Source: a virus. From it: 64,000 nucleotides of DNA. The DNA is taken from IMG/VR virus record IMGVR_UViG_3300037264_000690, positions 30,414-94,413 of that record. One strand, 5' to 3'. The notes under the pieces were generated by a model. That model searched no databases. It was not told where the DNA came from and worked only from the letters and a program-made list of their open reading frames with translations. Position numbers and translations under genes: made by a program. Positions 3,417 through 62,372 of this stretch are shown here, piece after piece; positions within the stretch are counted from its first letter, which is position 1; every line of letters begins with the position of its first letter.

Positions 3417-5105
3417 GTGCCAAGACAATCAGTTGGAATCCCCGATCATGATGCCTATGGTGATCCACTGGCTGGCCTGACTACTGGCCAGCTTGCTGAT
3501 TGGGTTGTGCAGCGTCACATGGCTCAACGCGCTGGCGAACACTATGATGTCCGCTTCGGCACACCTGAAACTGGACTGTATTCTTGGGCAGCACGTAATG
3601 GTCTGCCCATGCCTGGCCAGAAACACCTCGCTGTCCAACAACCCATCCATGCTCATGGGTATAAGGACTTCCAGGGTGTCATCCCTCGTGGTTACGGTGC
3701 TGGCTCGGTCAGTAAGACTCAGTCAGGTCACGTCTTGGTAACCAGGATCGAGCCGAATGCAATCCACTTCACCACTGCGCGAAGTCGATTTCCCGAACGA
3801 TTCGCTCTGATCAAGCCGAAGAGTGGCAAGAACTGGCTATTGCTAAACACTACCAAGACCCAACCAATTCCTTACGACAAAGTTCACTACGCGACCATCC
3901 CTACCGAGAAAGCTGAGGAGATTATTGATGGTCTTCAACCAGGAAGCTCAGTACAAGCAAAAGTTGATGGTGCAGCAAGTCTCACAAAACTGTTCAAAGA
4001 CCACGTCGAGGTGGTTTCCTATCGAACGGCAAAAGGAACTGGATACCCAATTGTCCACACCGAGCGAGTGTTCCACGGACGACCCGGGGCTCAGATCCCT
4101 CGTGAGCTTATTGGAACGGTTTTGCGGGGGGAACTATATGGCGTTGGTCCCGAAGGTCGTGCTATTCCATCACAGCAGCTTGGTGGACTCCTCAACGCCG
4201 GAGTGGCTAAGTCGATCCAAAGGCAACGGGATCAGCAGATCAAACTGCGTAATCTTGTTTTCGACATTCACCAGCTTGGAGAATCGCCAACAGCAGCTAT
4301 GCCCTACGCTCAGCGGCTTGCCAAGTTGAAGGAGATCCTGCCGCTTCTGCCGAGCAGCGAGACGTTTCATGCTCCAGAGGAAGCAAGGACTCCAGTTGAA
4401 GCCCGTGCGCTTTTCGAACGTATACGTGCTGGTCAGCATCCATTGACCAGTGAGGGTCTGGTCGTTCACTCACCTACGGGAGTTCCGTCCAAGATCAAGT
4501 TCATGGAAGACCACGATGTTCATGTTCGTAGCATCTTCCCTGGTGAAGGTAAGTATGAGGGCATAGGTGCTGGTGGCTTCAACTACAGCCATGAGCCTGA
4601 AGGTCCCATCATTGGTCGAGTTGGTACTGGACTGTCCGACGAGATGCGTCGTGACTTGTTGGAGAACCAGGACGACTATGTTGGTCGTGTCGCCAGGGTA
4701 CAGGCCCAACAGAAGTTTCCATCTGGTTCGTTACGGGCACCATCGTTCATTTCCTTCCATGAGGACTACCCAGCTCGTCAGGCAGCACAGACCGCTGCAT
4801 CCGAGATGGGGTCGGCACGTCAGCGTATTCGCACCATGCGGCAACCAACGGCTGGCAATCCAGCTGAGCACGTCGGTGGCGCCTTAGCAGCGTTACGTCA
4901 AGCAAAGAAAGAGTCTGATCGCGGTAACTGGCCAGCTAAGCATGATCTGCTACGACAGACCATTCGCTCCGAGCCACACAATTTCATAATTGACTCAGAG
5001 ATGGCTGGCATTACCGGCTTGACACACAAGCCAACCGGGTTCAAAATCCACATTCCAACCCCAACTGTGCCGACGGAGCTGCGAGTTGCAAAGGGGGCCA
5101 TATGA
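3417..5105 (+). CDS. LigD-like 3'-phosphoesterase / ATP-dependent DNA ligase fusion
   Basis: 562 residues. GTG start chosen for the CGGAGG SD six bases upstream. Residues about 40-105 match the LigD phosphoesterase domain: HYDVRF (42-47), SWA, a LAV..PIHAH.Y.DF.GVIP block, then GYGAG. Residues about 178-365 are an ATP-dependent ligase adenylation domain: AKVDGA with the candidate AMP-accepting Lys182, RGELYG (237-242), SEGLVVHS (about 344) and a motif V Lys near SKIKF. The region from about 390 could be the OB domain. Bacterial LigD joins double-strand breaks with Ku. Here the primase/polymerase domain is absent and no Ku is seen. The motif I Arg (KxDGxR) appears replaced by Ser. Confidence 0.85.
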   Translation: MPRQSVGIPDHDAYGDPLAGLTTGQLADWVVQRHMAQRAGEHYDVRFGTPETGLYSWAARNGLPMPGQKHLAVQQPIHAHGYKDFQGVIPRGYGAGSVSKTQSGHVLVTRIEPNAIHFTTARSRFPERFALIKPKSGKNWLLLNTTKTQPIPYDKVHYATIPTEKAEEIIDGLQPGSSVQAKVDGAASLTKLFKDHVEVVSYRTAKGTGYPIVHTERVFHGRPGAQIPRELIGTVLRGELYGVGPEGRAIPSQQLGGLLNAGVAKSIQRQRDQQIKLRNLVFDIHQLGESPTAAMPYAQRLAKLKEILPLLPSSETFHAPEEARTPVEARALFERIRAGQHPLTSEGLVVHSPTGVPSKIKFMEDHDVHVRSIFPGEGKYEGIGAGGFNYSHEPEGPIIGRVGTGLSDEMRRDLLENQDDYVGRVARVQAQQKFPSGSLRAPSFISFHEDYPARQAAQTAASEMGSARQRIRTMRQPTAGNPAEHVGGALAALRQAKKESDRGNWPAKHDLLRQTIRSEPHNFIIDSEMAGITGLTHKPTGFKIHIPTPTVPTELRVAKGAI

Positions 5106-5581
5106 TGAATATAAGTGTAATTGACCTGCTCGTGATATGTCTCGTCACGATGTTGCTCAACTGCATGTTGCTCGTCTTTGTGGCAGTGTGGTTGTACTGC
5201 TACTTTGATGAGAAGATCGAGCAACTGACCAGGTCGAATCGACGTTTGCTTACGCGTCTTGATTGTCAAGAGGATGCGACGAAGAGGTTGCAAATCTTCA
5301 ATCCGCTGGCAGAGGAGATCTATCCGCCAATCTTTGACTTGGCATCGATAGCTGCACAAGTATCACCGATGGCTGAGGAGTTGGCCACGGAGGAACCATC
5401 GCCATACTTCACCTACCTTAAATCACACAAAGAGTTGTGGAGGCTGCAAGTTAAGGGCGAGGATAACTCGGATTATGCCGACTATCTTCGTGGCGTCATG
5501 GACGAGTGCTACGCCAAGCTCAACATAGTTGAGCAAGAGAATGCTGATCGTGAATCAGCCGAGGCGTGGAAGAACATCTAA
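5102..5581 (+). CDS. small membrane-anchored protein
   Basis: 159 residues. The ATGATG start overlaps the ligase stop; SD GGGGG lies just upstream. Residues about 6-32 form a strongly hydrophobic membrane helix, followed by a coiled-coil-like charged helix (about 38-60) and an acidic C-terminal domain. It shares layout with the membrane protein at 3043. Function unknown; co-translation with the ligase suggests the same operon rather than a shared activity. Confidence 0.7.
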   Translation: MMNISVIDLLVICLVTMLLNCMLLVFVAVWLYCYFDEKIEQLTRSNRRLLTRLDCQEDATKRLQIFNPLAEEIYPPIFDLASIAAQVSPMAEELATEEPSPYFTYLKSHKELWRLQVKGEDNSDYADYLRGVMDECYAKLNIVEQENADRESAEAWKNI

Positions 5582-5636
5582 AAAGGTCATGGTAACGTGT
5601 CAGTATTCAGTGGCGTGGCTTATCATAAAGGCCAAA

Positions 5637-5658
5637 CATCTGCCATCATGAGCAGATG
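5637..5658. repeat. inverted repeat in intergenic region
   Basis: Seven-bp dyad CATCTGC/GCAGATG with an 8-base loop in the 227-base non-coding stretch 5582-5808. There is no T-run, so it could be an operator or leader hairpin. Nothing else convincing is seen in this stretch. Confidence 0.4.
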
Positions 5659-5808
5659 AGCGACGTCGTCCCACCAGTGCTGATTTTTACATCATAGCAC
5701 TTGATATAAGTGGCGAGGACGGTTACAGTTTCCTTATTGGAAGCATCGGGGATGGCAACGGTTGTCAACCTCACTACTTCTTTAGAGCTCAGTTCAGAAA
5801 GGTCAGTC

Positions 5809-5934
5809 ATGACGAACTCGTGTAGCGCACCGGGTGCACCCAAGCCAGCCGCCATCAAAAAGGGCACTCCCCGCAAGGGCAGCACGGCAAAGGGCAAGGG
5901 TACGAAGGGCAAGGGCAGTAGCCGTGGGCGTTAA
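5809..5934 (+). CDS. 41-residue Lys/Gly-rich basic protein
   Basis: ATG at 5809 with SD GAAAGG seven bases upstream. The product is 41 residues with a small Ser/Cys/Pro/Ala N-terminus and a tail made of repeated K-G/T-K-G units ending in SSRGR, so it is very basic. Such short lysine-rich tails bind DNA or RNA non-specifically; DNA condensation is a plausible but untested role. It stands alone between non-coding DNA and a strong hairpin at 5970. A longer in-frame reading from 5710 has no SD and is not favoured. Confidence 0.6.
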   Translation: MTNSCSAPGAPKPAAIKKGTPRKGSTAKGKGTKGKGSSRGR

Positions 5935-5969
5935 GCCCCGGTAACCGCATATTTGCCTCTGTAAGTACA

Positions 5970-5995
5970 CGAGGGGCTCCGCAAGGAGCCCCTCG
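5970..5995 (+). terminator. hairpin with GCAA tetraloop, probable terminator
   Basis: Perfect 11-bp GC-rich stem CGAGGGGCTCC/GGAGCCCCTCG closed by GCAA, 35 bases after the basic-protein stop. It is followed by TTGCGTTTC, a poor U-tract, so it may be a weak terminator or an RNA stabiliser. Confidence 0.6.
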
Positions 5996-6043
5996 TTGCG
6001 TTTCAAGCACAGCGCATTTTCTTTAAGCATCAGGGGGTTGGTA

Positions 6044-7246
6044 GTGTCAACGATGATGAAGATGTTTCAGGATGTCATGATATGTCTCGATCAACAGCTA
6101 AATGTGCTGCTGGTCAGTGCCCCAGGTATGGGCAAGAGTTCATTCACGAAATGGATGGCTAATGAACTGAATGTCTTGCATATCGATATCAATCTCTCGC
6201 AGAATGAGGGTATTGACGTTCACGGAGCTCGAATCATTGCCCGTGAACCAAAGACGATTAATGGGAAGCAATGCACGGTTACAGTGCAAGCCCCACCTGA
6301 TTACGCCATTGACGCTACAGACTCCAATCGTGGCGCATTGATCAACTTCGAGGAGTTGACCTGCATCCCGCCGGCTGAAGCTGGTCCAACACTGGGCATC
6401 TTCTCGGATTACATCATCGGAGGCATCCGTCTCGACAAGGAGAGGATTGGCATCACGGCGTGCTGTAATCCGCCGGAGATGTCCGCTGGTGGTTGGAAGC
6501 TTAGTCTACCCACGATTAACCGATTCGTGCGGCTCAACTTCGATCAAGACGTGACGGAGTGGGCAGAGAATTTCATCACTTACTGGGACAATCCACCAGT
6601 TATCAAGAGATGGAATCGTGAAACTTCTGAGTCCGAGTGGTCGCGTGATCGTGCAGTCGTCGCCTCGTTTGCCAGGCAGTTTCCTGACTTGGTGAACAAA
6701 CCACCCGAAGCTGGCTCCGCTGATGAATCCTTCTGCACATTCCGCTCGCTTGACTTTGCCAGTCGTATCAAGACAGGCTGTCGGCTGCGCAATGCAACCG
6801 AGGATGTGCGACAGAGGCTATGGGCTGGTGCGTTAGGAGGTGCCACCGCTAAACAGTTGTGGGAGTACCTCAACCATTTCGATCTTCCTTCTCCATCGGA
6901 GATCATTGATAATCCGGGGAACTTCGACATGACGATCGTCCCCTCGGACAAGATGTTCTACCTAATCATGGCCTGTGTCGCTGAGATCATGAATCGCAAG
7001 CGGCAGGGCGATGCCAAGAAGAAGGACATGAAGTTCCACAGCTACGTCATCAAGTCGTGGCAGAGTATGTGGGATATTCTGCTGCTGGTACTCAAGAGTC
7101 GTGGCCCAAAAGACATTGTGGCTGCAGCAGCTCGGCGGATTGCCGATCCAGCAAACTACCCGAAAGGTGCTGAGCCACCCACGGCGATTGAAGATATCGT
7201 TAAGGTGGTGCGGGCATCTGGCGTTGATTGGAGAAGGAAGGCATGA
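6044..7246 (+). CDS. MoxR-type AAA+ ATPase
   Basis: 400 residues from a GTG at 6044, chosen because GGGGG lies six bases upstream; ATGs at 6056/6059 are alternatives. Walker A APGMGKSS is at 26-33, Walker B LINFEE at about 99-104, a sensor-1 ACCNP near 140 and an Arg in TINRFVRLNF near 160. This is the MoxR/RavA pattern of AAA+ chaperones that work with vWA partners. The gene is followed by two small paralogous genes and a metallopeptidase-vWA gene with overlapping starts and stops, so the four probably act as one complex, perhaps in protein maturation or virion assembly. The acidic Walker B variant (NFEE) is as seen. Confidence 0.85.
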   Translation: MSTMMKMFQDVMICLDQQLNVLLVSAPGMGKSSFTKWMANELNVLHIDINLSQNEGIDVHGARIIAREPKTINGKQCTVTVQAPPDYAIDATDSNRGALINFEELTCIPPAEAGPTLGIFSDYIIGGIRLDKERIGITACCNPPEMSAGGWKLSLPTINRFVRLNFDQDVTEWAENFITYWDNPPVIKRWNRETSESEWSRDRAVVASFARQFPDLVNKPPEAGSADESFCTFRSLDFASRIKTGCRLRNATEDVRQRLWAGALGGATAKQLWEYLNHFDLPSPSEIIDNPGNFDMTIVPSDKMFYLIMACVAEIMNRKRQGDAKKKDMKFHSYVIKSWQSMWDILLLVLKSRGPKDIVAAAARRIADPANYPKGAEPPTAIEDIVKVVRASGVDWRRKA

Positions 7247-7845
7247 GTTTTGCCATCCAGCTCACATGCTCAGATGCAACCCACGAAGTTGTTGTCGATC
7301 TAGAGCGAAAGCTAATCTATCTACCCAGTCATGACGCCGAGTTCGTACGACGCTATCAAGCGTTGTATGAACTCGGCGGTGATCCTATTCCATGTTGTGC
7401 CATGGCCATCGACTTGTTGTCCGGTCTCCACCCTGGATACCTTCAATTGCATTACGATCTGTTTAATTTAGAAGTGCTCACGCCCACGTACTGTAACTGG
7501 CGTGACGCATTATCTAGAGCTATTGACTGTGTTTGTTATCGCGTAACCATCGTGTCAGGATTGAAATCACCAACCATCATTGGGCGAGTTGGTTTCTACA
7601 TCGGAGCAACTCGCGGTCAAATCATCCGTAATGTCAAGGCGTTTGAGGACAAGGGTGGAAAAACCATCTTCTATCCGCCAACGCTTCGTTGTCTTGTTGG
7701 GGAGCATTGGCTTATTGCAAACCGTCTCGTTGAGCGAGCTCTTGATGATGACTTCTCCCCAACAGATCCTGATCCAGCGTGGCATACCGCGACTCTTGCT
7801 GGAGGGCACTATGAGCCAGCTTCGCATTCCAGTGCGGTGCGATGA
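7243..7845 (+). CDS. unknown protein of a three-member phage family
   Basis: 200 residues. ATG at 7243 overlaps the ATPase stop (ATGA) with GGAGAAGGAAGG as SD. The first 60 residues (a C-x8-9-H-x-V start, a short strand, then RRYQALYELGGDPIPC) match the whole of the next protein (7811) and the start of the one at 24955. The remaining 140 residues are unique to this copy. No known domain recognised. Position between MoxR and vWA genes suggests an adaptor of that system. Confidence 0.75.
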   Translation: MSFAIQLTCSDATHEVVVDLERKLIYLPSHDAEFVRRYQALYELGGDPIPCCAMAIDLLSGLHPGYLQLHYDLFNLEVLTPTYCNWRDALSRAIDCVCYRVTIVSGLKSPTIIGRVGFYIGATRGQIIRNVKAFEDKGGKTIFYPPTLRCLVGEHWLIANRLVERALDDDFSPTDPDPAWHTATLAGGHYEPASHSSAVR

Positions 7846-8086
7846 GGCCGTCCACCACATCGAGATCGATCCGCTCAAATTGGAGGCGTATCTGCTCGAT
7901 CACCAGATCACCATGGAGCGCTACGCATGCCTTGAAGAGATCGGTGGCGATCCACCAATGTGCTACAAGATGTGCAAAGCCTTCAACGACATTTCAGCAC
8001 CATTCCGCAACACCCCGCAGAAGTTCTGGGAGTTCGTGACTGAACTCTCCGACTTTGCGAGGAAAAAGCACGAGGACATCCTATGA
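7811..8086 (+). CDS. small paralogue of the 7243 protein
   Basis: 91 residues. The ATG at 7811 has SD GGAGGG five bases upstream; longer in-frame readings would run back inside the previous gene. It overlaps the previous gene by 35 bases and the next by four (ATGA). Core motif: RYACLEEIGGDPPMCYKM, aligned with the first domain of 7243 and with the protein at 24955. No enzymatic motif is visible. Translational coupling ties it to the AAA/vWA pair. Confidence 0.75.
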   Translation: MSQLRIPVRCDEAVHHIEIDPLKLEAYLLDHQITMERYACLEEIGGDPPMCYKMCKAFNDISAPFRNTPQKFWEFVTELSDFARKKHEDIL

Positions 8087-9432
8087 GCGTTGTGACCGTT
8101 GAAATCCCACCTGAGCTTCTGGAAAGGGACATCTACTCTGCTCGTCTCCGTGCTTGTGATGCCACGACCGGGTTCCCTTTTCTCAGCTACGGTTTGATGA
8201 GCCTGATCCCTGTCATCACCAGTAAGGTGAAGACTTGTGCGGTCGACAAGTGGTGGCGGGTGTACGTCAACCCGGACTTCTTCAGCTCGCTGACTCCCGA
8301 CGAGGGAGCCATGGTCATGGTCCACGAGGTCTGGCACTTGCTGCTTGAACACGCACGACGTGCCGTCGACTACGGCATCCCCACAACCGATCACGAGATC
8401 TGGAACTGTGCAGACGACATTGAGATCAACCAGCACGACGCGATCTTCAAGCGGCTGCCAGGCAAGCCACTGACGCCGAATACTTTCGGCTTCAAGCGCA
8501 ACTTGCTGGCTGAGGAATACTACGAGCTGCTCAAGAAGAACACGACCACCATCGAAATCTGCTTCATGCCTGGTTCTGGTGCCTGCGGCTCGTGTGCTCA
8601 TGGCAATCCGGAGGACTACGAGTTGCCGGAACCGACCCACTCGACTGGTGAGTCCAAGGACGGTGAGTCCAAGGACGGTGAGGCTGGCGATGAAAACAGT
8701 CAGAAGGATTACGTGCCTGGCATCAGTGAGATGCGAGCCAAGATCATTGCCCAGGAGGTTGCAAGGCAGATCCAGGAGGCAGCCAAGTCTTGTGGCAACG
8801 TGCCCGAGGGTTGGCAGCGCTGGGCAGACCGGACGCTGACGCCGATGGTGGACTACCGTCCGTTCCTGCGACAGAGCATCCAGGGCATGATCGTTTCTAA
8901 GTCGGGCTATGTCTACCCGAGTTATCGTAAGCCCAGTCGCCGACAACACCTCAACCCCGACTTCCTACGGCCGTTCTACAAGGATATCCTGCCGCAGGTC
9001 GCCATGATCATCGACACCTCTGGTTCGATGAGCGATCAGCAGGTGGGGCAGGGCATTGCTGAAGTGGATGGCGTGCTGTCCACCTTCAGTCACCGGGCTG
9101 CCATCGCGGTGTATTTCACTGACGCTGCAGCTGCTGCAGCACAGAAGGTTTGCTGCACCAAAGACCTACGGCCCATTGGTGGCGGCGGCACAGATATGGG
9201 TGAAGGTTTCCAGGCCATTGACGCTGACGTGAAAAAGAACCCCGGTTCACAGCCATCGACCATCATCGTCATCACCGATGGCTACACGCCGTGGCCAGCA
9301 AAGCCACCCAGCTACGCTAACGTCCTCGTCGTCCTGGTGGGGGATGGTGACACGGCGCCATGGGCCAAACCACCCGTTCATGGCACAATCAAATTGAAGA
9401 TGCCTAAGCCGAAGCCGCAACGGCAGCATTGA
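8083..9432 (+). CDS. metallopeptidase-vWA protein (DUF2201/CoxE-like)
   Basis: 449 residues. The N-terminal half carries HEVWH (81-85) with a downstream NCADDIEIN (about 108-116), the arrangement of the zincin-like domain found before vWA in DUF2201 proteins. A low-complexity Ser-Lys-Asp-Gly linker lies near 190-205. The C-terminal vWA domain has the MIDAS motif DTSGSMS (about 310-316), a Gly-rich GGGGTDMG (near 366) and ITDGYTP (near 397). vWA proteins of this type are partners of MoxR ATPases, encoded here upstream with coupled starts. A role in remodelling or processing a phage or host complex is inferred. Confidence 0.85.
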   Translation: MSVVTVEIPPELLERDIYSARLRACDATTGFPFLSYGLMSLIPVITSKVKTCAVDKWWRVYVNPDFFSSLTPDEGAMVMVHEVWHLLLEHARRAVDYGIPTTDHEIWNCADDIEINQHDAIFKRLPGKPLTPNTFGFKRNLLAEEYYELLKKNTTTIEICFMPGSGACGSCAHGNPEDYELPEPTHSTGESKDGESKDGEAGDENSQKDYVPGISEMRAKIIAQEVARQIQEAAKSCGNVPEGWQRWADRTLTPMVDYRPFLRQSIQGMIVSKSGYVYPSYRKPSRRQHLNPDFLRPFYKDILPQVAMIIDTSGSMSDQQVGQGIAEVDGVLSTFSHRAAIAVYFTDAAAAAAQKVCCTKDLRPIGGGGTDMGEGFQAIDADVKKNPGSQPSTIIVITDGYTPWPAKPPSYANVLVVLVGDGDTAPWAKPPVHGTIKLKMPKPKPQRQH

Positions 9433-9457
9433 TAAACGGTTCCTTGGCCGTCCTGCG

Positions 9458-9494
9458 GAGTGGGTGGTGACATAAGTTGCCACCCACTCTTTTT
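9458..9494 (+). terminator. intrinsic terminator
   Basis: Perfect 10-bp stem GAGTGGGTGG/CCACCCACTC with a 12-base loop, followed by TTTTTCTTT. It closes the MoxR-vWA operon. Confidence 0.92.
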
Positions 9495-9556
9495 CTTTAC
9501 CCAACAAGACGTTACACTAGTAATAGTTATGTAGGACCTCTAACTTCGGGGGCAGC

Positions 9557-9865
9557 ATGACCATTAAGCTGTATGACGCTGTTCGTCAGTGCATCCGTGC
9601 TCAGATCAACATGCAAACAGCACAGCACAGCCTGTCTGATCCAGCCAACATCGATAGTCATCGTGACAATCTGAGACACAACTGTTTGCATGAGGCGTTA
9701 TACATGTCGCTTGGAGTTCTGGCTCGACTTGATGTCATCAACGACCCCATGAACGATCAAGCACAAACATCCGCACGCGAGTTGATCGGCGTACTTTCTC
9801 AACGTCTAGACATTGACGTGGAAGACAAGTTCGGTGTACCCTTAAAGTCTAGGGGTGAAGTGTAG
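9557..9865 (+). CDS. hypothetical helical protein
   Basis: 102 residues. The ATG has GGGGGC as SD and follows a terminator, so it starts a new unit. Predicted mostly helical, with an N-terminal helix rich in Gln/His/Asn and a C-terminal ELIGVLSQRLDI segment. No family recognised and no membrane segment seen. Confidence 0.65.
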   Translation: MTIKLYDAVRQCIRAQINMQTAQHSLSDPANIDSHRDNLRHNCLHEALYMSLGVLARLDVINDPMNDQAQTSARELIGVLSQRLDIDVEDKFGVPLKSRGEV

Positions 9866-9867
9866 CG

Positions 9868-9881
9868 AGTAGTTTTTTACT
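9868..9881. promoter_or_regulatory. AGTA-N6-TACT dyad, copy 2
   Basis: AGTA GTTTTT TACT, 14 bases upstream of the ATG at 9896 and just after the stop of the previous gene. Its reverse complement is identical to copy 4 at 39707. Confidence 0.55.
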
Positions 9882-9895
9882 GCAGGGATACAGTT

Positions 9896-10372
9896 ATGGC
9901 CAAGGGTCGTCACTATCGCTTTCGCAACCTCGACTACTGGGCTGAGCGAGGTCTCATCAACATCGTCGACGAACGCTTCCCGCCAAGTCATGACAAAGCG
10001 TTTACTGTCGTACCAGTTCGAGAGTTTCTTTATCGACTCAAGGGCCTCAACGATATGATTGGTCGCTGGGGTAAGCAGTGGCCCGATGAACGCAACGAGA
10101 TGCAAACCATGATCGAGAATGGTGTTGAGTGTTGTCGTGAGGCCAAGACACAAGGTCGGCCTGACGATCCTCGTGCTGTCGCCCAGATGCTCAGAGAACG
10201 TCGCCGCTTTATGCTATACGCTGGCACCGGCAGTGTATCGCCGGTTGGTGCGATCTCGTCAGATTTTGCACCTGAAAGCGTCAACCTACCGCCCATCCCG
10301 CAAGCTAATCCGAACAAGCCGATCACGTCGTTAGTCCCAGCGCCAATTACTCTATCCAAACTCTTTACTTGA
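9896..10372 (+). CDS. hypothetical protein
   Basis: 158 residues. ATG at 9896 with AGGGA as SD, preceded by the AGTA-N6-TACT dyad. The first 110 residues look helical and charged with several Trp and Arg; the last 35 are a Pro/Ser/Asn-rich disordered tail. No recognisable domain. It sits directly upstream of the exported serine protease. Confidence 0.65.
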   Translation: MAKGRHYRFRNLDYWAERGLINIVDERFPPSHDKAFTVVPVREFLYRLKGLNDMIGRWGKQWPDERNEMQTMIENGVECCREAKTQGRPDDPRAVAQMLRERRRFMLYAGTGSVSPVGAISSDFAPESVNLPPIPQANPNKPITSLVPAPITLSKLFT

Positions 10373-10385
10373 GGGGGGTTCCGCT

Positions 10386-11297
10386 ATGCTCAGAAAGACT
10401 ATGCTTGCAACTGCGTTTGTCATCATGATGGCAGCCATCACGGTGTCACAAAAGGTCGAAGCACAGAACAAGCCAGCATTCAAGGTTTCTCAGTATCTGC
10501 AGGACATTAGCGTCACAGTTCGCGCCGGCCAGTTCTCTGGCTCCGGAGTCATGGTGCAGACTAGCGACGGTCAAATCTGGATCTGGACGGCTGCTCACGT
10601 CACCGAGCCTCTACGTCGCACACACGAAGTCCTCGACGACAAAGGCGTGAGGCGTCTGAAGGTTGAGTTCGACGATGCCAATATCCTCCGATTCAACAAG
10701 AACAAGGAGGAAGGTCGCATCGTGTCAAGTTATAGCGGCGACGCTGAAGTGATCCGCTACTCTGACTCAAAGAATGGTCATGATCTATGTCTGTTGCGAC
10801 TGCGAGATAAGGACTTCAAGCCAAATAGCTCGGCGAAGTTCTATCTCGAAAAGGGCATCCCTGATATCGGTGAGGACCTGTACCACTGCGGCTCACTACT
10901 CGGACCAATCGGTTCCAATAGCTTGACCAGCGGTATCATGTCTCAGCACGGTCGTGTGTTCGATGGTAGGATTTACGATCAGACGACTGCAACGTCGTTC
11001 CCGGGCAGCTCGGGCGGCATTGTCTGTCTCAAGTTGGATGGACGCTACGTTGGCATGCTGGTGATGGGTGCCGGTGAAGGCTTCGGTCTCATCGTTCCAG
11101 TCAGACGAATGATAGACTGGTCTAAGAAGACTGGTGTTGAGTTTGCACTGGATCCGGCTGTCAAGGTGCCAACCGACGAAGAGTTGCGTAGCAAACCAAT
11201 TGAGGACGGTGTCTTCAGTAGTGGTGGCACCAATCAACACAAGCAGCGTGAAGCCGCCAAGCTGAAGTTTATGCTGAATAATCACCGCGACGATTAG
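10386..11297 (+). CDS. secreted trypsin-like serine protease
   Basis: 303 residues, SD GGGGGG. Residues 1-26 form a signal peptide (basic start, hydrophobic core, VEA cleavage site). The catalytic triad of the chymotrypsin/DegP fold is visible: His71 in WTAAHV, Asp133 in HDLCLLRL, Ser209 in PGSSGGIV. No PDZ domain follows; the C-terminal 50 residues are charged. The product should act outside the cytoplasm, for example on envelope proteins or as a released protease. It is unlike prohead proteases, which lack signal peptides. An exported protease in a phage replication region is unusual. Confidence 0.85.
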   Translation: MLRKTMLATAFVIMMAAITVSQKVEAQNKPAFKVSQYLQDISVTVRAGQFSGSGVMVQTSDGQIWIWTAAHVTEPLRRTHEVLDDKGVRRLKVEFDDANILRFNKNKEEGRIVSSYSGDAEVIRYSDSKNGHDLCLLRLRDKDFKPNSSAKFYLEKGIPDIGEDLYHCGSLLGPIGSNSLTSGIMSQHGRVFDGRIYDQTTATSFPGSSGGIVCLKLDGRYVGMLVMGAGEGFGLIVPVRRMIDWSKKTGVEFALDPAVKVPTDEELRSKPIEDGVFSSGGTNQHKQREAAKLKFMLNNHRDD

Positions 11298-12795: not shown

Positions 12796-13645
12796 AAAGA
12801 CTGCAGCTGCGTCAGATGCACCTCTAGTGCCTACCCGTGGGCTTGAACTAAATGAGGATTGGGGTCAGCATCGTAATAAGTTGCTCAAGACCTTAGCACT
12901 GCTTGGGTTGAGTAGTGCTGCTATTGGCGGTGGTATAACTGGAGGTTTCGGTCTGCATCGCTTGCATCAAATGCGTAATGAGAAGCCAGAGGCTCTGCCT
13001 GGTAATATCCCGCTCACCATGCCGCCTGGTAGGCTACCACCTAGCGATGAGCCGGAGAAGATTGCAGCCTCAGTACCGTTTGGACACTGGAAGCAGCTCA
13101 TTGGTATGACTGCACAACATCCGTCTGACATTCCACTTGGCTGGCTTGCGGCTCCGGCTGTCGGCGTCGGTGGCCTACTTGGCAGTAGCGCTCTAATGAA
13201 TCGGATTTTGCATAACAAGATGAAGAGCGTACGTAGCAACGAGCTGGCTCAGTCACAGCAAGAGTTCGACAAGGCAATGTTAGAGCAGTATGACAGTCCG
13301 CAGCTACGTAGTGAGAAGATCAGCTCGGCTCTTGACTACCTATACGATGCAGTCGAGAAGCAAGCAATTAGCTCGATTACACCTGGTGCGGTGACCTCAA
13401 CCGACAAGCAACCACTAACAGATGCTAGCAGCTCTGGTAGTGTACTTGGTCCGCTGGCGCTAGCAGCCGCACTAAGCGGTAGTTTCGGTCTGCGCGCTGG
13501 CTATCGTTGGGCGGAAGGACGCAAACCTGAAAATCTACTGCGTGATGTCATGAAGCAGAGAGCGCTTCGCCGTGCACAGGCCATGCCTGAATCGATTCAG
13601 TTCGCAGCACCAAGGCCGGCTGATGAACAGGAACTTGACGAATAA
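12707..13645 (+). CDS. multi-segment membrane protein
   Basis: 312 residues. ATG at 12707 is preferred (GGAG eight bases upstream); an in-frame TTG at 12644 lacks an SD. Three Gly/Ala-rich hydrophobic stretches (roughly 62-88, 143-165, 258-280) could span a membrane, separated by charged, helical regions. No catalytic motif. Its stop overlaps an ATG of the RNAP reading frame. It may be membrane-bound or an internal virion protein; not recognised. Confidence 0.65.
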   Translation: MSFPLVQAVYKVRGGMLGLLGSNTHPLVSEKTAAASDAPLVPTRGLELNEDWGQHRNKLLKTLALLGLSSAAIGGGITGGFGLHRLHQMRNEKPEALPGNIPLTMPPGRLPPSDEPEKIAASVPFGHWKQLIGMTAQHPSDIPLGWLAAPAVGVGGLLGSSALMNRILHNKMKSVRSNELAQSQQEFDKAMLEQYDSPQLRSEKISSALDYLYDAVEKQAISSITPGAVTSTDKQPLTDASSSGSVLGPLALAAALSGSFGLRAGYRWAEGRKPENLLRDVMKQRALRRAQAMPESIQFAAPRPADEQELDE

Positions 13646-13659
13646 TGTTGGAGGGCACG

Positions 13660-16600
13660 ATGCCTAGTATTGTCACCGTGGGGCCAACGCATGACTCCGT
13701 TGAGAGCAGTGCGACGGCGACCACTACTAAGCTGCCAGCACAGCCGCCGCAGCAACGGTCCATTGTAGCTGGTCCTCCACCAGCCCCGGTGACGATGCGC
13801 TCATTCGGTGACTCCGACGCTACCCGCAAAGCTATCTATGATAACGTGCTCAAAGCAGCACAAGATATTCAGCCGGTAGCCAACAACCGTTACAGTCTTG
13901 AGCTAAACGAACCGCATTGGTCCAGTGACGAAGGTGTGTCTATCAACGAACGCAAGAGAGCCATCCTTCGCGGTGAGACACTGAACCGTCGGCTGCGTGG
14001 CACCTGGCGGCTCAAGGACGTTCAAGGTAACCTTGTCAGCGAACGTCTTGCTACGGTTGCGCACGTTCCTCGCATGACTAACCAGGGCACTTTCGTCGTT
14101 AACGGTTCCGAGTACACACTTGGCCATCAGATGCGATTGCGACCTGGTGTCTTCACACGTCGTAAGGAAAATGGTGAGCTGGAGAGCCACATCAACATCA
14201 TGCCCGGTAAGGGTCTGAGCCATCACTACTTCCTGGAACCAGAGACTGGCATTTTCAAGATCCGTGTTGGCCAAGCTAATATGCCACTCGTTTCAGTTAT
14301 GAAGGCGATGGGTGCCACCGATAGCGAATTGCGTGACGCCTGGGGTGCCGAGCTACATGGTCTTAACGCACAGAAGGACGATCCTCGCGTTATGGACAAG
14401 CTCTATGCTCGACTTATCGGCAAGAAGGGTGATCCTAATGCCAGTCTGGAAGACAAGCGTCAAGCAGTTGGTAAGGCGTTTAGTGAGATGGAGCTAGACC
14501 CAGAGGTCACAAAGCGGACACTTGGTCAGCCTTATGGTCGCCTCGGTAAAGAAGTTGCCATAGCGACCACCAAGAAGCTGCTTGGTGTCAGTCGCGGTGA
14601 GGCTGACACCGACGATCGTGACGCGCTAGCTTTCCAGCACTTCATGGGACCGGAAGACCTGTTCGCTGAGCGTATTGGCCGCGACAAGCGGGTACTCAAC
14701 GAACTGCTCTGGAAGGCGACCACGCACGGCAATCTGGATAAGATGCCGACTGGCGCCTTCACCAGACATATCCACGCCGCGCTGCTGGACAGTGGGCTGG
14801 GGCAGTGCTTTGATGTTGAAACAAAGGTGCTGACCGCGCGTGGTTTCATCGCTTGGCCAGTAGTCACCGAAGACGATCTATTTGCTTGCTTGATAAACGG
14901 CAAGTTGAGCTACCACAAAGCTTACAAGCTGTTCAAGTATGAATACGATGGACAGCTATACTGTCGAACAACAAAACGGCTTGATTATTGTGTTACACCT
15001 AACCATCGTTTGTGGTGTAAGTCTAAGTTCTACTCTGATTATCAGACAGAGTTAGCTGAACAAGCACACGGCAAGACCAGAATATTCAACATCGCGCTTC
15101 CACCATATGATGGTGTTGATACGGATTTCGTGTTGCCTTCAGTTAAAACAGGTCGGTGGCAGAATGACACTGGTCCGCTAACTACGCCTGGTGACATCTG
15201 GGCTAGTTTTCTTGGTTGGTATATTAGTGAGGGTTGGGTGTCAACCGAGACGCAGCGAAACGGTAACGAGACACGGCGTATCTGTATCTCGCAGTGTCCT
15301 GTAGCGCATCCGGTGGAGCATGCCGAGATAATTCGTGTGCTGTCGCAACTACCGTGCAAGTGGAATTACAATCATAGCAACAAAACATTCTGTATCAACA
15401 ACAAGCAGTTTGTTGAAGAAGTTGCAAAGTATGGTAGTAATGCTCGGGTTAAGCGTATACCACGATACTGCTTTAGTTGGACTAATCGACGGTTGGCATT
15501 GCTGTTGGATGCCTACATGGCTGGCGACGGCAATGTTTGCAATGGACACCACAAAGCTGAAACTGTTTCTGAACAACTTGCTGAAGATTTGTCGGAAGCC
15601 TTCAATCGTCTTGGTAATGCAGTTTATATCTCAAAGCGGAAGCTAAGTGAAAAGAATCCTGCGTGGGCCGATAGCTATGTTGTTAGTGTACTGAAGACTG
15701 GCTCTACAACTGCATTTGGCCACACTTGTCACAAGCGTCACTATGTAGGTCCGGTCTACTGTGCTCATGTACCTGGAGAGCGTCTTTACATTAGCCGCAA
15801 TCGACGTAACTCCTGGAGTGCCAATAGTTTAGAAGAGATAAATCCAGCAGATGTGTTCGATCAGCAGACCCGAGTCAGCCGACTTGGCTATGGTGGCATT
15901 CCCAGTATCGACGCTGTTCCCGATGAAGCTCGTTCAGTGCAGCCAAGCCACTTGGGTTACATCGACCTGCTCCGCACCCCGGAGTCGTTCAAGGTCGGTG
16001 TCGACTCGCGTGTGAGCCACGTTGCCAAGAAGGGCAGCGACGGGCGCATCTACACGCCATTCCTGGATCCCAAGTCGGGTCAGATGGTCTATCGCAGCCC
16101 GCAGGACGTGGCTGACTTGACACTGGCCTTCCCCGGCGAGCTGCAAAAAGGCAAGCCGCTGGTCGCCGCCATTGTTGGCGGCAAGACCCGGTATGTCCCG
16201 CGCGATCAAGTTGACTTGGCCATGCCGCACGCCGAGCACTGGTTTAGCCCGATCAATAACATGGTGCCAATGAAGTCGGCCGTGAAGGGCCAACGTGCCG
16301 CCATGGCCTCCCGCTTCCTCACTCAGGCCCTGCCGATCAAGGATGCTGAGTCCCCACATGTCCGTGGTCAGGTGCCGGGTGCTGTGGGTCGATCGTTCGA
16401 GGAGCACTATGGCAATCAAGTTGGTGCAGTGTTCGGCGAGCAACAGTCTGGTCGAGTCACTAGCGTGTCGCCCGATGAGATCACCGTCAAGTACGCCGAT
16501 GGTTCGACCAAGACCCACGAGCTGTACAACAACTTCCCATACAACCGGAAGACTTACATTCACAACGAGTCGCTAGTGCAGAAGGGTGACCCAGTAAAGC

Positions 16601-19152
16601 CTGGGCAATTGCTTGCCAAGTCGAACTACACCGACCAACATGGTCACGTTGCCCTGGGCAAAAACCTACGTGTGGCTTACGTTCCGTTCCGTGGGCTTAA
16701 CTATGAGGACGCCTACGTTATCTCCGAGTCAGGTGCCAAGAAGCTCTCCTCTGAGCATATGTACCAGCACGCGATGGAGTGGGATGAGCGGCATCGCAGG
16801 GGCCTCAACAGCTTCATTAGCATCTTCCCGGGCACTTTCCAGAAGCCACAGCTCAGGGGTATGGACACCGATGGTATTGTGAAGCCTGGTACTGTACTCA
16901 AGCCTGGTGATCCGGTTGTCCTTGCCGCTCGCGAACGTGAGTTGTCGCGCAAACAGGTTCACACCTCGCATAAGGGCAGCTTCATTAACGACTCACTCAC
17001 CTGGGATCACCATGCCGAGGGTATGGTCACTGACGTTGAGAAGACCGATAAGGGCGTGACAGTCGCGGTGAAGAGCCTCAACCAGCTGCAGGTCGGCGAC
17101 AAGATGTCTGGCCGCTATGGTGATAAGGGTGTCATCGCTGACGTTATACCTGATGATCAGATGCCGCATGATGAAGAGGGAAACCCCTATGAAGTGCTGG
17201 CCAATCCGCTTGGCGTTATTAGCCGCACTAATCCAGCTCAAATGATCGAGGCTACTCTTGGCGCAATTGCTGCTAAGACAGGTAAGTATTATGCTATCGA
17301 TGACTTCTCCAATATTAAGGACTTGACTGAGTATGCCATGAAGGAGCGTGAGAAGCACGGACTTAACAACTTCGGCAAGATCTTCGACCCAACCACTAAC
17401 AAGTCCATCGACAATGTCTTCACTGGCAATCGCTTCTTCATGAAGCTGCACCATACGTCAGAATCGAAGGGACAGGGTCGCGGTCTGGGTGGTTACACTG
17501 CTGAGGGCATGCCGGCCAAGGGCGGCGTCGAGGGTAGTAAGCGGATGGCCCTCATGGATGTCAATGCGATGCTCTCGCACGGTGCTGTCGAGACGCTGCG
17601 TGACGTCAAGTTGATTCGTGGTCAGAAGAACCAGGAATACTGGTCGAACTTCATGCAGGGCAATCGGCCACCGACGCCACGTGTGCCGATCGTCTACGAG
17701 AAGTTCGTCAACTACCTCAAGGCTTCTGGCGTCAACGTCGTCCGTAAGGGCACGCAGACACACCTGATGGAGTTGACTGATAAGAACGTCGATGACATGG
17801 CTGGCGACCGTGAGCTGCAGAACGTGAAGACGGTCGACTGGAAGACTGGTTTGACCCCCATCAAGGGCGGCCTCTTCGATGAAACGCTTACCGGCGGTCA
17901 CAACGGCAACCGCTGGGCCAAGATCACTCTGCACGAGCCGATGCCCAATCCAGTCATGGAGGAGCCGATCCGTCGACTGCTAGGTTTAACCAAAGAGAAG
18001 TTCGAGAAAGTAATTGCTGGTAGTGACCAACTTGGCGGTAAGACTGGACCAGAGGCTATCCAGAGTGCTCTGGCAGGCGTCAACGTGAAGCAGGCGCTAG
18101 CTCAGTGCCAGGCAGATATTAAGTCGGGTCGGAAGACCTTGCGTGATATTGCTGTGCGGAAGCTGCAGTTCCTCAAGTCGGCAGAGATGAAGGGCATTCA
18201 CCCCAAGGATTGGATGATGACCAAAGTCCCGGTCATCCCGCCCATGTTCCGTCCAATCTCGGTCATGCAGCAAAGCGGTGGTCGGATCATTAGCGACTCC
18301 AACTACCTCTACAAGGAGCTCTTCGACGCCAACCAGGCGCTCAAGGATGTGAAGGGCGTCTCGGAGGATATCGGTGACGAGCGACTTAACCTGTATAACG
18401 CCTATCGTGGCGTCACCGGCCTGGGCGACCCCGTTCATCCTAAGCTTCAGGAGAAGAAGATTAAGGGCTTCCTGCAGCATGTCTTCGGTACTAGCCCGAA
18501 GTTCAGCACAGTGCAGCAGAAGTTGATCGGTACTACGGTCGACCTAGTTGGTCGCGCAGTGGTTGTGCCAAATCCAGACTTACACATGGATGAGGTGGGT
18601 CTTCCCGAGGCCCGCGCCTGGGAAATCTACACTCCGTTCATTGCTCGTCGGCTAGTCAAGCAGGGCGTGCCCCGTGTGCAGGCCCTGGAGCACGTCCGTA
18701 ACAAGCATGACTTGGCCAAGCGGGCAATGCTTGAAGAGATCAACGAGCGTCCAGTTATTGTGACCCGAGCGCCAACTCTGCATCGCTACGGACTCATGTC
18801 ATTCTGGCCACGATTGACAAAGGGTGAGACTCTGCAGATCAGCCCGATTGTGGTTGGTGGCTTCAACATGGACTTTGACGGTGACGCCTCGAACTATCAC
18901 GTCCCGGCTTCTGATGAAGCGCGTAATGAAGCAGTGGACAAGCTGATGCCCAGTAAAAATCTATTCAACGTTAGCCGGTTTCAGGCGCACTACCTTTTAA
19001 GGCAGGAATACATAGGAGGAGTCTACAACGCAACTGCAAAAAAGAATGATAAGCCATCGCGAGTTTTTGCTACCAAACAAGACGCCTTGCGAGCATTCTA
19101 TAATGGTAGTCTGCAGCCAGCTGATCCGATCCATATTGTAGGTGACAAATGA
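13660..19152 (+). CDS. RNA polymerase beta + beta' N-terminal fusion, with intein
   Basis: 1830 residues (about 1490 after intein removal). Start at 13660 has SD GGAGGG; an in-frame ATG at 13645 is less likely. Beta blocks in order: GTFVVNGSEYTLGHQ (cf. GTFIINGTERV), the rifampicin-pocket/fork region rejoined as SLEEINPADV...SRLG, NYEDAYVISE, GDKMSGRYGDKGVI, then the YTAEGMPAKGG block. Beta' blocks follow: PVIPPMFRP, IVTRAPTLHR and the catalytic NMDFDGD (1736-1742) with all three Mg-binding aspartates. The protein stops just after the active-site domain; the rest of beta' is the gene at 22023. No alpha or omega is seen. It likely makes a phage multisubunit RNAP. Confidence 0.93.
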   Translation: MPSIVTVGPTHDSVESSATATTTKLPAQPPQQRSIVAGPPPAPVTMRSFGDSDATRKAIYDNVLKAAQDIQPVANNRYSLELNEPHWSSDEGVSINERKRAILRGETLNRRLRGTWRLKDVQGNLVSERLATVAHVPRMTNQGTFVVNGSEYTLGHQMRLRPGVFTRRKENGELESHINIMPGKGLSHHYFLEPETGIFKIRVGQANMPLVSVMKAMGATDSELRDAWGAELHGLNAQKDDPRVMDKLYARLIGKKGDPNASLEDKRQAVGKAFSEMELDPEVTKRTLGQPYGRLGKEVAIATTKKLLGVSRGEADTDDRDALAFQHFMGPEDLFAERIGRDKRVLNELLWKATTHGNLDKMPTGAFTRHIHAALLDSGLGQCFDVETKVLTARGFIAWPVVTEDDLFACLINGKLSYHKAYKLFKYEYDGQLYCRTTKRLDYCVTPNHRLWCKSKFYSDYQTELAEQAHGKTRIFNIALPPYDGVDTDFVLPSVKTGRWQNDTGPLTTPGDIWASFLGWYISEGWVSTETQRNGNETRRICISQCPVAHPVEHAEIIRVLSQLPCKWNYNHSNKTFCINNKQFVEEVAKYGSNARVKRIPRYCFSWTNRRLALLLDAYMAGDGNVCNGHHKAETVSEQLAEDLSEAFNRLGNAVYISKRKLSEKNPAWADSYVVSVLKTGSTTAFGHTCHKRHYVGPVYCAHVPGERLYISRNRRNSWSANSLEEINPADVFDQQTRVSRLGYGGIPSIDAVPDEARSVQPSHLGYIDLLRTPESFKVGVDSRVSHVAKKGSDGRIYTPFLDPKSGQMVYRSPQDVADLTLAFPGELQKGKPLVAAIVGGKTRYVPRDQVDLAMPHAEHWFSPINNMVPMKSAVKGQRAAMASRFLTQALPIKDAESPHVRGQVPGAVGRSFEEHYGNQVGAVFGEQQSGRVTSVSPDEITVKYADGSTKTHELYNNFPYNRKTYIHNESLVQKGDPVKPGQLLAKSNYTDQHGHVALGKNLRVAYVPFRGLNYEDAYVISESGAKKLSSEHMYQHAMEWDERHRRGLNSFISIFPGTFQKPQLRGMDTDGIVKPGTVLKPGDPVVLAARERELSRKQVHTSHKGSFINDSLTWDHHAEGMVTDVEKTDKGVTVAVKSLNQLQVGDKMSGRYGDKGVIADVIPDDQMPHDEEGNPYEVLANPLGVISRTNPAQMIEATLGAIAAKTGKYYAIDDFSNIKDLTEYAMKEREKHGLNNFGKIFDPTTNKSIDNVFTGNRFFMKLHHTSESKGQGRGLGGYTAEGMPAKGGVEGSKRMALMDVNAMLSHGAVETLRDVKLIRGQKNQEYWSNFMQGNRPPTPRVPIVYEKFVNYLKASGVNVVRKGTQTHLMELTDKNVDDMAGDRELQNVKTVDWKTGLTPIKGGLFDETLTGGHNGNRWAKITLHEPMPNPVMEEPIRRLLGLTKEKFEKVIAGSDQLGGKTGPEAIQSALAGVNVKQALAQCQADIKSGRKTLRDIAVRKLQFLKSAEMKGIHPKDWMMTKVPVIPPMFRPISVMQQSGGRIISDSNYLYKELFDANQALKDVKGVSEDIGDERLNLYNAYRGVTGLGDPVHPKLQEKKIKGFLQHVFGTSPKFSTVQQKLIGTTVDLVGRAVVVPNPDLHMDEVGLPEARAWEIYTPFIARRLVKQGVPRVQALEHVRNKHDLAKRAMLEEINERPVIVTRAPTLHRYGLMSFWPRLTKGETLQISPIVVGGFNMDFDGDASNYHVPASDEARNEAVDKLMPSKNLFNVSRFQAHYLLRQEYIGGVYNATAKKNDKPSRVFATKQDALRAFYNGSLQPADPIHIVGDK
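14806..15825 (+). mobile_element. LAGLIDADG intein within the RNAP beta domain
   Basis: 340 residues in frame (residues 383-722). It begins with Cys (CFDVETKVLTARGF, block A), has TPNHRLW (block B), two dodecapeptide-like helices (FLGWYISEGWV and LLLDAYMAGDGN) and ends VYCAHVPGERLYISR...SWSAN before Ser723. The penultimate residue is Ala instead of the usual His. Splicing would join GLGQ to SLEEINPAD in the conserved rifampicin-pocket region, the usual kind of site for an intein. Mid-region is more A/T-rich than the flanks, in keeping with separate origin. Confidence 0.92.
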
Positions 19153-24954: not shown

Positions 24955-25380
24955 ATGCGTCGCGTTGTAGCAACCGTTATGGTGTCGTGTGATGGTGCCA
25001 AGCATCGCGTTGGCTTATGTCGTGACGGTAGCTTCATCTACTACAATCACACCGCCATTCACGTCCGTCGTTATCGCTTGCTGGCTGAAATTGGCGCAGC
25101 CACGCCCATATGTCTGAGTTTTTACAAAGACAGAGCCAGCGAATTAATCGTCTACCCTGACATTTCAGAGGTCAACAAGAATCGACGATTCCGGGAAGCG
25201 ATTCGTCGTGTGCAATTGCAGCGTATAACCCTTAACCTTACTCGTAAAAGTGCTGCTACGTTAAAGCCGGTGCCTGTCAAGCAGCTACGCCGTAGTTGTT
25301 TTCGAAAGTCAAAATCTGCAATCTGGTGGTCTGTTGATGGACGGCCTCGACGACGGAAAGTGTGGGAAGTGTCACAGTGA
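24955..25380 (+). CDS. third member of the 7243/7811 small family
   Basis: 141 residues, SD GAGGATG. The first 60 residues (VSCDGAKHRVGL, then HVRRYRLLAEIG..TPIC) align with the proteins at 7243 and 7811: an initial C-x-x-A-x-H strand motif, a His, and a RRYxxLxEIGxxxPxC helix. The C-terminal 70 residues are strongly basic (many Arg/Lys) and unique, suggesting nucleic-acid contact. No function known. Confidence 0.7.
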   Translation: MRRVVATVMVSCDGAKHRVGLCRDGSFIYYNHTAIHVRRYRLLAEIGAATPICLSFYKDRASELIVYPDISEVNKNRRFREAIRRVQLQRITLNLTRKSAATLKPVPVKQLRRSCFRKSKSAIWWSVDGRPRRRKVWEVSQ

Positions 25381-61364: not shown

Positions 61365-62372
61365 ATGGCTGTTCGATACATTGACGGCGTTCCGTGCATT
61401 GACGGCGGCGGTGAAATCCGCAAGCTCGCTGCTATGCCGCCACCGCCGCAAATGCTGGCCACGGCGAAGCAGTATACAGCCGACTACATGGCACCCGACC
61501 CGTCGACCTGGGCGGACTTCGACTTCGCTGACATTCTGACACTCATCATTCGCAACCAGAGCCAGTACGGCTCTTGTACAGGACACGCTGGTGTTACCGC
61601 TACGGACATCATCCTGCGGAAGATCGGCAGCGACGTACCGTTGTTGTCCTGCACCTTCCCATATGCGCAGGTGAATGGTGGTCGTGATAACGGTGCCAGC
61701 GTCAGCTCGATCCTCAAGGTGCTGACGCAGTTGGGCACCTGCACGCACGCTGAATGTGGCACGGATCAGATCTACAAGCAGCAGATCCCGCAGAGTGCCT
61801 ACGCGACCGCCAAGAAGTATCAGGTCACCGAAGCTTTCCTATGTCGGACTTACAATGAGATCGTCGATGCCATCAACCGTGGCTTCCCGGTCCCGCTAGG
61901 CATTCAGGTTGGTAACAACTTCAGTCGACTTGATAATAACGGTATTGCACCGCTGCCAGACATGGCGATCGGTGGCCATGCTTTGTGCGGCATTGGCATC
62001 AAGCAGTATCGAGGCGAATGGCTCGTTAAGGTGCAGAACAGCTGGGATACGCGCTGGGGCATGAAGGGCTGCTGCTATCTGACTCGCAGCCACTTCATCC
62101 ACATGATTGATGCCTACGCCATCATGTATGGCGACAACCTTAACCCACCACCAATTGCAAAAGCAGAAGAGAAGGTAACGCTACCAGAACTCGTATTACA
62201 GGAGGTAGTACCGCAAGCTCCTGAATCACAAGAAGTCACAGAGGAGAACTCACTCCTGGCTCAGTTCCAGGAATCTGAACAAGAGTTGGATGCAGGTACT
62301 CCTGGCTTAACTCACACAGACCCCGATGGTCTCATGGAGACCACTGGTAAGAAGAAACGTCACAAGCATTGA
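61365..62372 (+). CDS. papain-like cysteine protease
   Basis: 335 residues, AAGGAG SD. Papain-family residues: Gln65 and Cys71 in NQSQYGSC, His205 in AIGGHALC and Asn225 in KVQNSWDTRWG. No N-terminal signal or prodomain is evident. The C-terminal 70 residues are acidic, Gln/Glu-rich and probably disordered, ending in a basic KKKRHKH tail. Papain-like enzymes in phages are rare; it could cleave a virion, envelope or host protein. Confidence 0.85.
   Translation: MAVRYIDGVPCIDGGGEIRKLAAMPPPPQMLATAKQYTADYMAPDPSTWADFDFADILTLIIRNQSQYGSCTGHAGVTATDIILRKIGSDVPLLSCTFPYAQVNGGRDNGASVSSILKVLTQLGTCTHAECGTDQIYKQQIPQSAYATAKKYQVTEAFLCRTYNEIVDAINRGFPVPLGIQVGNNFSRLDNNGIAPLPDMAIGGHALCGIGIKQYRGEWLVKVQNSWDTRWGMKGCCYLTRSHFIHMIDAYAIMYGDNLNPPPIAKAEEKVTLPELVLQEVVPQAPESQEVTEENSLLAQFQESEQELDAGTPGLTHTDPDGLMETTGKKKRHKH

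Follow-up and report, generated by a model that had tools for sequence, protein, structure and literature searches.

Pairs of a MoxR-type AAA+ ATPase and a protein with a metallopeptidase domain and a von Willebrand factor A (vWA) domain are already known, and such a pair on its own is not new. Iyer et al. (2021) described it in jumbo phages and proposed a function in virion assembly and peptidolytic processing (PMC7824862). The N4 genes gp24 and gp25 are two of the 14 core genes of N4-like phages (PMC4193335; PMC2784036) and belong to the middle genes (PMC4193335). In ATV, p618 is part of the virion and interacts with the vWA protein p892 (PMC4124505). In NorQD, the vWA domain acts as a plug of the MoxR ring and uses its MIDAS to bind the client, into which pairs of this type insert metal (PMC9976466). 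A tested function for the MoxR/metallopeptidase-vWA pair was not found in the open-licence literature searched. Here we analyse such a pair in a stretch of 64,000 nucleotides (the window), which comprises bases 30414-94413 of the linear, 94,413-base IMG/VR virus record IMGVR_UViG_3300037264_000690. The pair, P0001 (MoxR) and P0004 (metallopeptidase-vWA, a DUF2201 protein), is encoded in a four-gene operon together with two small proteins, P0002 and P0003, which carry a domain that we call CHHC after its conserved residues. An initial annotation of this DNA had considered the operon a possible remodelling or protease machine, which is a fair reading but not a new one, since Iyer et al. made the same proposal.

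The jumbo group 2.2 pair (ASV44729.1/ASV44728.2) resembles that of the window in its two proteins, their domain order (metallopeptidase N-terminal, vWA C-terminal) and the gene order. However, the window's pair belongs to another clade, has CHHC genes between its members and retains an intact HExxH motif, which reads HQILH in phage Atu_ph07. N4 gp24/gp25, core genes of the Schitoviridae, likewise encode an AAA ATPase followed by a DUF2201/vWFA protein, but the N4-like pair is core and middle-transcribed, whereas that of the window appears to be accessory, and no CHHC gene was found between the N4-like pairs examined. ATV p618/p892 are also virus-encoded MoxR and vWA partners, and the comparison with an archaeal virus drawn in the initial annotation is thus genuine (PMC4124505); yet ATV is a spindle virus and p892 lacks the metallopeptidase domain (according to Iyer et al.). 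A MoxR-vWA pair with a third component, as in the window, is also typical of the ternary conflict systems (eLife 2020, PMC7159879). There the third component is VMAP, iSTAND, FtsH or a beta-propeller, none of which was found in the window's operon (no Pfam, PHROG or PADLOC match in P0002 or P0003 naming such a domain); CHHC proteins stand in their place, associated with ankyrin repeats in bacteria, and the vWA protein carries a metallopeptidase. Membership in a defence system was rejected, as PADLOC gave no match for P0002, P0003 or P0004, and P0001 obtained weak matches to ATPase domains only. The closest named sequences are the AAA/VWA-like DUF2201 pairs of actinobacterial plasmids and chromosomes. 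On several of these plasmids the AAA and VWA genes overlap by 4 nucleotides, and on chromosomes a CHHC gene adjoins the pair; in contrast to the window, it lies upstream of the AAA gene, fused to ankyrin repeats, and not between the pair. Several plasmid copies have three downstream genes instead, and in L126, L127, L129, L131 and L136 they form a recurring five-gene module of MoxR AAA, metallopeptidase-vWA, a protein of about 60 amino acids, one of about 390 amino acids of unknown family and an AAA_30-type ATPase.

With the CHHC domain, the machine may have a third component that is so far undescribed. P0002 and P0003 are paralogues by alignment (36% over 50 amino acids) and by leave-one-out hidden Markov models (HMMs; E = 1e-19 and 9.4e-18, best non-member about 0.15), in agreement with the initial annotation. 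They form one family with a gene elsewhere in the window and with three genes of the sister phage IMGVR_UViG_3300031576_000512 (leave-one-out E values from 1e-19 to 4e-6), and all six members have an invariant C-x4-H ... H ... C pattern in common. The third gene of the window stands isolated, near a tRNA-Asn gene and 15 kb from the operon. The earlier claim that only the two sister phages possess this family was rejected: this view was based on too few loci and was overturned by wider HMM searches. Single-protein scans had matched only the sister phage, and neither the small genes that separate the pair in Schitoviridae, PA5oct, phiFa and phage G nor the small proteins of actinobacterial plasmids had matched P0002 or P0003.

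For the wider searches, an alignment of the vWA proteins of the window, the sister and Actinobacteria was used to scan for relatives, which were found on 307 viral and 413 genome contigs; the best 80 loci of each set were compared. The pair is thus common in uncultivated viruses, in addition to being core in N4-like phages. An HMM built from the two sister phages only matched a gene between AAA and vWA in the viral contig L147 (3.9e-12), and proteins encoded upstream of AAA in the actinobacterial loci L292 (2.1e-7), L261 (1.5e-6) and L289 (3.5e-6), with the C, H, H and C residues kept in the viral and bacterial matches. After iteration, the domain was present in 124 open reading frames (ORFs), among which these residues were conserved at 1.00, 1.00, 0.92 and 0.99, respectively. 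In 58 of the 80 bacterial loci, mostly actinobacterial, the domain was located in the gene just before AAA. Among the 80 viral loci it was detected in 25, and in 17 of these 25 between AAA and vWA, although this interval accounts for only 6% of the viral sequence. In control searches with the iterated model, 13,362 ORFs from 100 related-phage loci gave nothing better than E = 0.023, and reversed ORFs nothing better than 0.14. An HMM from the bacterial rows only recovered the window's three CHHC genes at 1.3e-5 (the isolated gene), 0.0011 and 0.0018, a partly dependent test because its rows had been recruited from the window; the direct matches of the sister-only HMM are independent. With the bacteria-only HMM, one control locus without the pair (L095) scored E = 0.00064. 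Pfam and NCBIfam hold no model of the CHHC domain.

The second half of the CHHC proteins varies. Ank_2 was detected in 26 of the 47 CHHC proteins scanned (26 of these 47 proteins are bacterial), and three bacterial proteins scanned singly showed ankyrin repeats, whereas none were found in seven viral ones. The bacterial proteins are fusions in which the repeats follow the CHHC domain, while the C-terminal parts of the viral proteins differ from one another; that of P0002 is common only to the sister phage. Neither a toxin nor an enzyme domain was found in the CHHC proteins scanned. Among open-licence papers we found no usable publication on a MoxR-vWA-ankyrin association, which may be described elsewhere. 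The genes also occur in tandem, with three copies in an Actinoplanes couchii locus (L291). Around one pair on the 170 kb viral contig IMGVR_UViG_3300037483_000594 (L159, positions 3521-11104) ten HMM matches pointed to about ten CHHC genes, two between the pair and eight downstream. The AlphaFold2 model of P0003 (pLDDT 90.6) consists of three strands followed by three helices. No close known structure was found for it with Foldseek against PDB (best E = 1.6) and BFVD (best E = 0.69) or with VIA (best Z = 3.4), and a search with the P0002 model gave no useful match beyond common arrangements (best Z = 4.2, gelsolin-like). The four conserved residues suggest that the domain probably binds metal.

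The four operon ORFs lie at 6044-9432, where the initial annotation had placed them (Table 1), and its description of four coupled genes ahead of a strong terminator holds. Successive genes overlap by ATGA at 7243-7246, by 35 nucleotides at 7811-7845 and again by ATGA at 8083-8086. The AAA gene starts with GTG, with alternative ATG codons at 6053, 6056 or 6062. The terminator folds at -26.8 kcal/mol (z = -6.45; none of 200 shuffles was as good), and the hairpin upstream of the operon is probably the terminator of the preceding gene. The sister phage has the same arrangement with the same ATGA junctions, which suggests that the layout is beyond chance. Between the sisters, identity amounts to 84% for AAA and 78% for vWA, and the substitution rates (AAA dN 0.11, dS 1.9; vWA dN 0.17, dS 1.7) indicate that both genes are under purifying selection. 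The sister encodes three small paralogues between the pair, compared to two in the window, and both small genes of the window reach a dN of 0.55 versus 0.18-0.20 in flanking genes. By these rates, the CHHC genes evolve fast while the pair stays conserved.

Table 1. Operon genes, motifs and signals, in window coordinates
Feature	Position	Strand	Evidence or details
P0001, MoxR-clade AAA+ ATPase, 400 aa	6044..7246	+	phrog_1297, midasin profile match, aligned motifs
P0002, CHHC-domain protein 1, 200 aa, N-terminal CHHC domain and C-terminal region	7243..7845	+	
P0003, CHHC-domain protein 2, 91 aa, nearly bare domain	7811..8086	+	
P0004, DUF2201 protein, HExxH metallopeptidase domain then vWA domain, 449 aa	8083..9432	+	
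CHHC core of P0002 (C9, H14, H30, C51)	7267..7395	+	invariant in six members
CHHC core of P0003 (C10, H15, H31, C51)	7838..7963	+	alignment
HEVWH, predicted zinc-peptidase motif, residues 81-85	8323..8337	+	alignment; H90, D112, N116 invariant too
vWA MIDAS, DTSGS	9013..9027	+	alignment; D311, S313, S315, T370, D399 invariant
Intrinsic terminator closing the operon	9457..9490	+	15-bp stem, then TTTTCTTT
Strong hairpin just upstream of the operon	5969..5996	+	-29 kcal/mol, z -6.45; weak T tract
Third CHHC paralogue, 141 aa, outside the operon	24955..25380	+	leave-one-out HMM E 4.3e-6, next non-member 0.39

Pfam, PHROG and profile matches agree with the initial annotation on the identity of the pair. 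P0001 matched phrog_1297 (E = 1.9e-32) with weak Pfam scores; a profile of P0001 and its phage homologues found midasin as top PDB match (5.5e-20), and its relatives match AAA_5, AAA_3 and bpMoxR. Walker A (GKS), the catalytic glutamate E104, sensor-1 N142, the arginine finger R160 and sensor-2 R234 are all retained in the alignment. In Walker B, the aspartate is replaced by glutamate (NFEEL) in the window and the sister, a change also present in an M. intracellulare copy. The stretch from strand 2 to Walker B aligns, in a sequence alignment only, with midasin, a member of the helix-2-insert clade. As in the window, a vWA partner gene adjoins AAA in 73 of the 80 viral and 79 of the 80 bacterial loci. 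By these profile matches and motifs, P0001 is a MoxR-type AAA+ ATPase.

P0004 matched PF13203 with 93.4 bits (cut-off 23.2), PF09967 with 51.2 bits (cut-off 26.4) and phrog_1314 (E = 2.9e-49), and its profile also matched MJ1213 structures across the HExxH region (E = 0.0012). By its domain matches, it combines an N-terminal HExxH metallopeptidase domain with a C-terminal vWA domain and has predicted zinc-peptidase activity. Phrog_1314 carries the label HNH endonuclease, which we rejected as Pfam gives DUF2201_N, DUF2201 and vWA, and no HNH domain. Automated labels nevertheless assign this half of the pair to the HNH endonucleases: throughout RefSeq phage records such as NC_023581, NC_042013 and NC_071039, the metallopeptidase-vWA protein is labelled in this way, which seems to stem from the name of the PHROG family.

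The best match of P0004 among phage isolates reached E = 6e-15, compared to 35% identity and E = 1e-41 for actinobacterial plasmids. Maximum-likelihood trees united the window and its sister with actinobacterial copies (support 99/98 for vWA and 95/95 for AAA), apart from the described phage pairs. A larger FastTree, to which 79 viral loci were added, again separated the ten isolate phages, which clustered with two plasmid copies, and placed the window inside a mixed virus-bacteria clade of weak inner support. The separation of the window from the isolate phages implies at least two lineages of the pair in viruses. A direct transfer of the pair from an actinobacterial plasmid is less well supported in light of the larger tree, given the mixed clade and its poor inner support. 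A search with phrog_1314 through 94 virus records, chosen for a related capsid protein or RNA polymerase, found the gene in the sister only; many of these records are fragments, but the gene is also missing from several of about 200 kb. The operon therefore looks accessory in its phage clade, and its absence from relatives speaks against a virion role needed by every phage of the clade. Two records of the same clade, L118 and L119, encode a different AAA protein, CobS-like by eye, and no DUF2201 gene was found in them.

Taken together, we tentatively read the operon as a three-part, ATP-driven remodelling and peptidase machine with CHHC adaptors or receptors, a reading that we hold at somewhat less than an even chance. 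By analogy with NorQD, we infer that the MoxR protein would form a ring motor that drives the metallopeptidase-vWA protein. The latter would dock on the ring through its vWA domain and carry the zinc-peptidase domain, so that a target could be cleaved rather than only remodelled. The small proteins would act as interchangeable adaptors or receptors, whose constant, putatively metal-binding CHHC half docks to the pair and whose variable C-terminal half (ankyrin repeats in Actinobacteria, other sequences in viruses) binds the target. A wider proposal, possible but rather doubtful, is that an ATP-driven peptidase of three components is common to viruses and Actinobacteria: a MoxR ring, a metallopeptidase-vWA protein and diversifying CHHC adaptors whose other half picks the target, with a logic like that of adaptor-guided proteolysis. 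Since the operon seems to be accessory, we lean slightly towards a host protein, rather than one of the virion, as the target in this phage. The conserved third gene family may provide a handle on how the pair finds targets, and the ankyrin-fused form in culturable Actinobacteria, together with the viral tandem arrays, makes the adaptor idea testable.

The pattern of a constant core and of partners that multiply and evolve quickly agrees with adaptors, but it would also suit clients or effectors, which constitute the main rival. Several points weigh against the three-part machine. Every member of that machine is known from its sequence, and the metal site of the CHHC domain is deduced from conservation. 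The loci compared, 80 viral and 80 bacterial, were reached through two motifs and chosen for their top scores, and form no random sample; IMG/VR contigs are predicted viruses, some of which may be cellular. For many pairs, among them those of the N4-like phages and jumbo phages examined, no CHHC gene could be detected, which implies that the pair can work without it. Finally, the HQILH of the Atu_ph07 homologue (L008, 3899-5188) has glutamine instead of the catalytic glutamate, so peptidase activity may not be universal among homologues. The Atu_ph07 copy is apparently the pair for which peptidase processing had been proposed.

In the rival just mentioned, the CHHC proteins would be substrates or regulated effectors of the pair, being activated, metallated or cleaved by it. 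Metal insertion into a client by NorQD-type pairs (PMC9976466) would match the metal-binding appearance of CHHC, and tandem expansion and fast evolution also suit a set of effectors; however, the ankyrin fusion in Actinobacteria suits target binding better and the CHHC proteins scanned gave no toxin or enzyme domain; we regard this rival as fairly improbable. Unlikely, too, is a machine for virion assembly or maturation, in which the pair would reshape and trim structural proteins, along the lines suggested for group 2.2 jumbo phages (PMC7824862) and for the tail growth of ATV, where p618 is found in the virion and interacts with p892 (PMC4124505). The PA5oct MoxR homologue gp149 (L010, 2-1099) may also be virion-associated, as its record notes ESI-MS/MS, like those of nearby structural proteins. 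Yet for the phage of the window such a role is unsupported: close relatives seem to build virions without the pair (93 of the 94 related records show no vWA gene of this family), the genes around the operon are those of helicase, ligase and RNA polymerase rather than of capsid and tail, N4 gp24/25 belong to the middle class (PMC4193335), and the same pair is present on chromosomes and plasmids of Actinobacteria, where no virion is made.

A machine that disables a host protein, for example a defence factor or a housekeeping complex, would agree with the accessory nature of the operon, with small parts whose rate of evolution is about three times that of the flanking genes and with a CHHC copy number that differs between the two sisters. 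There is, however, no direct link to a host target, the PADLOC results point to no such function, and the same pair also sits in bacterial chromosomes and is hence not purely viral; we regard this explanation as quite unlikely. Hardly credible is the idea that only the pair matters and the small genes are unrelated passengers lying between its members. In other phages unrelated small genes do occur at this position, but homologous domains adjoin the pair in viruses and Actinobacteria, and the controls were negative.

That the source of the window is a phage is evident from its capsid protein, for which the major capsid protein of Salmonella phage Arash was a match, and from the genes of the region, among them those for an SNF2-type helicase, a LigD_N-ligase and a multisubunit RNA polymerase. 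At 13645-19152, the beta and beta-prime parts of this polymerase are encoded in a single ORF with a LAGLIDADG-like insert (weak Pfam match) that looks like an intein. A few genes downstream of the operon, at 10386-11297, we noted a Trypsin_2 peptidase with an apparent signal peptide (74% identity in the sister). A papain-like cysteine peptidase was recognized by eye only at 61365-62372 (QSQYGSC ... GGHA ... QNSWDTRWG).

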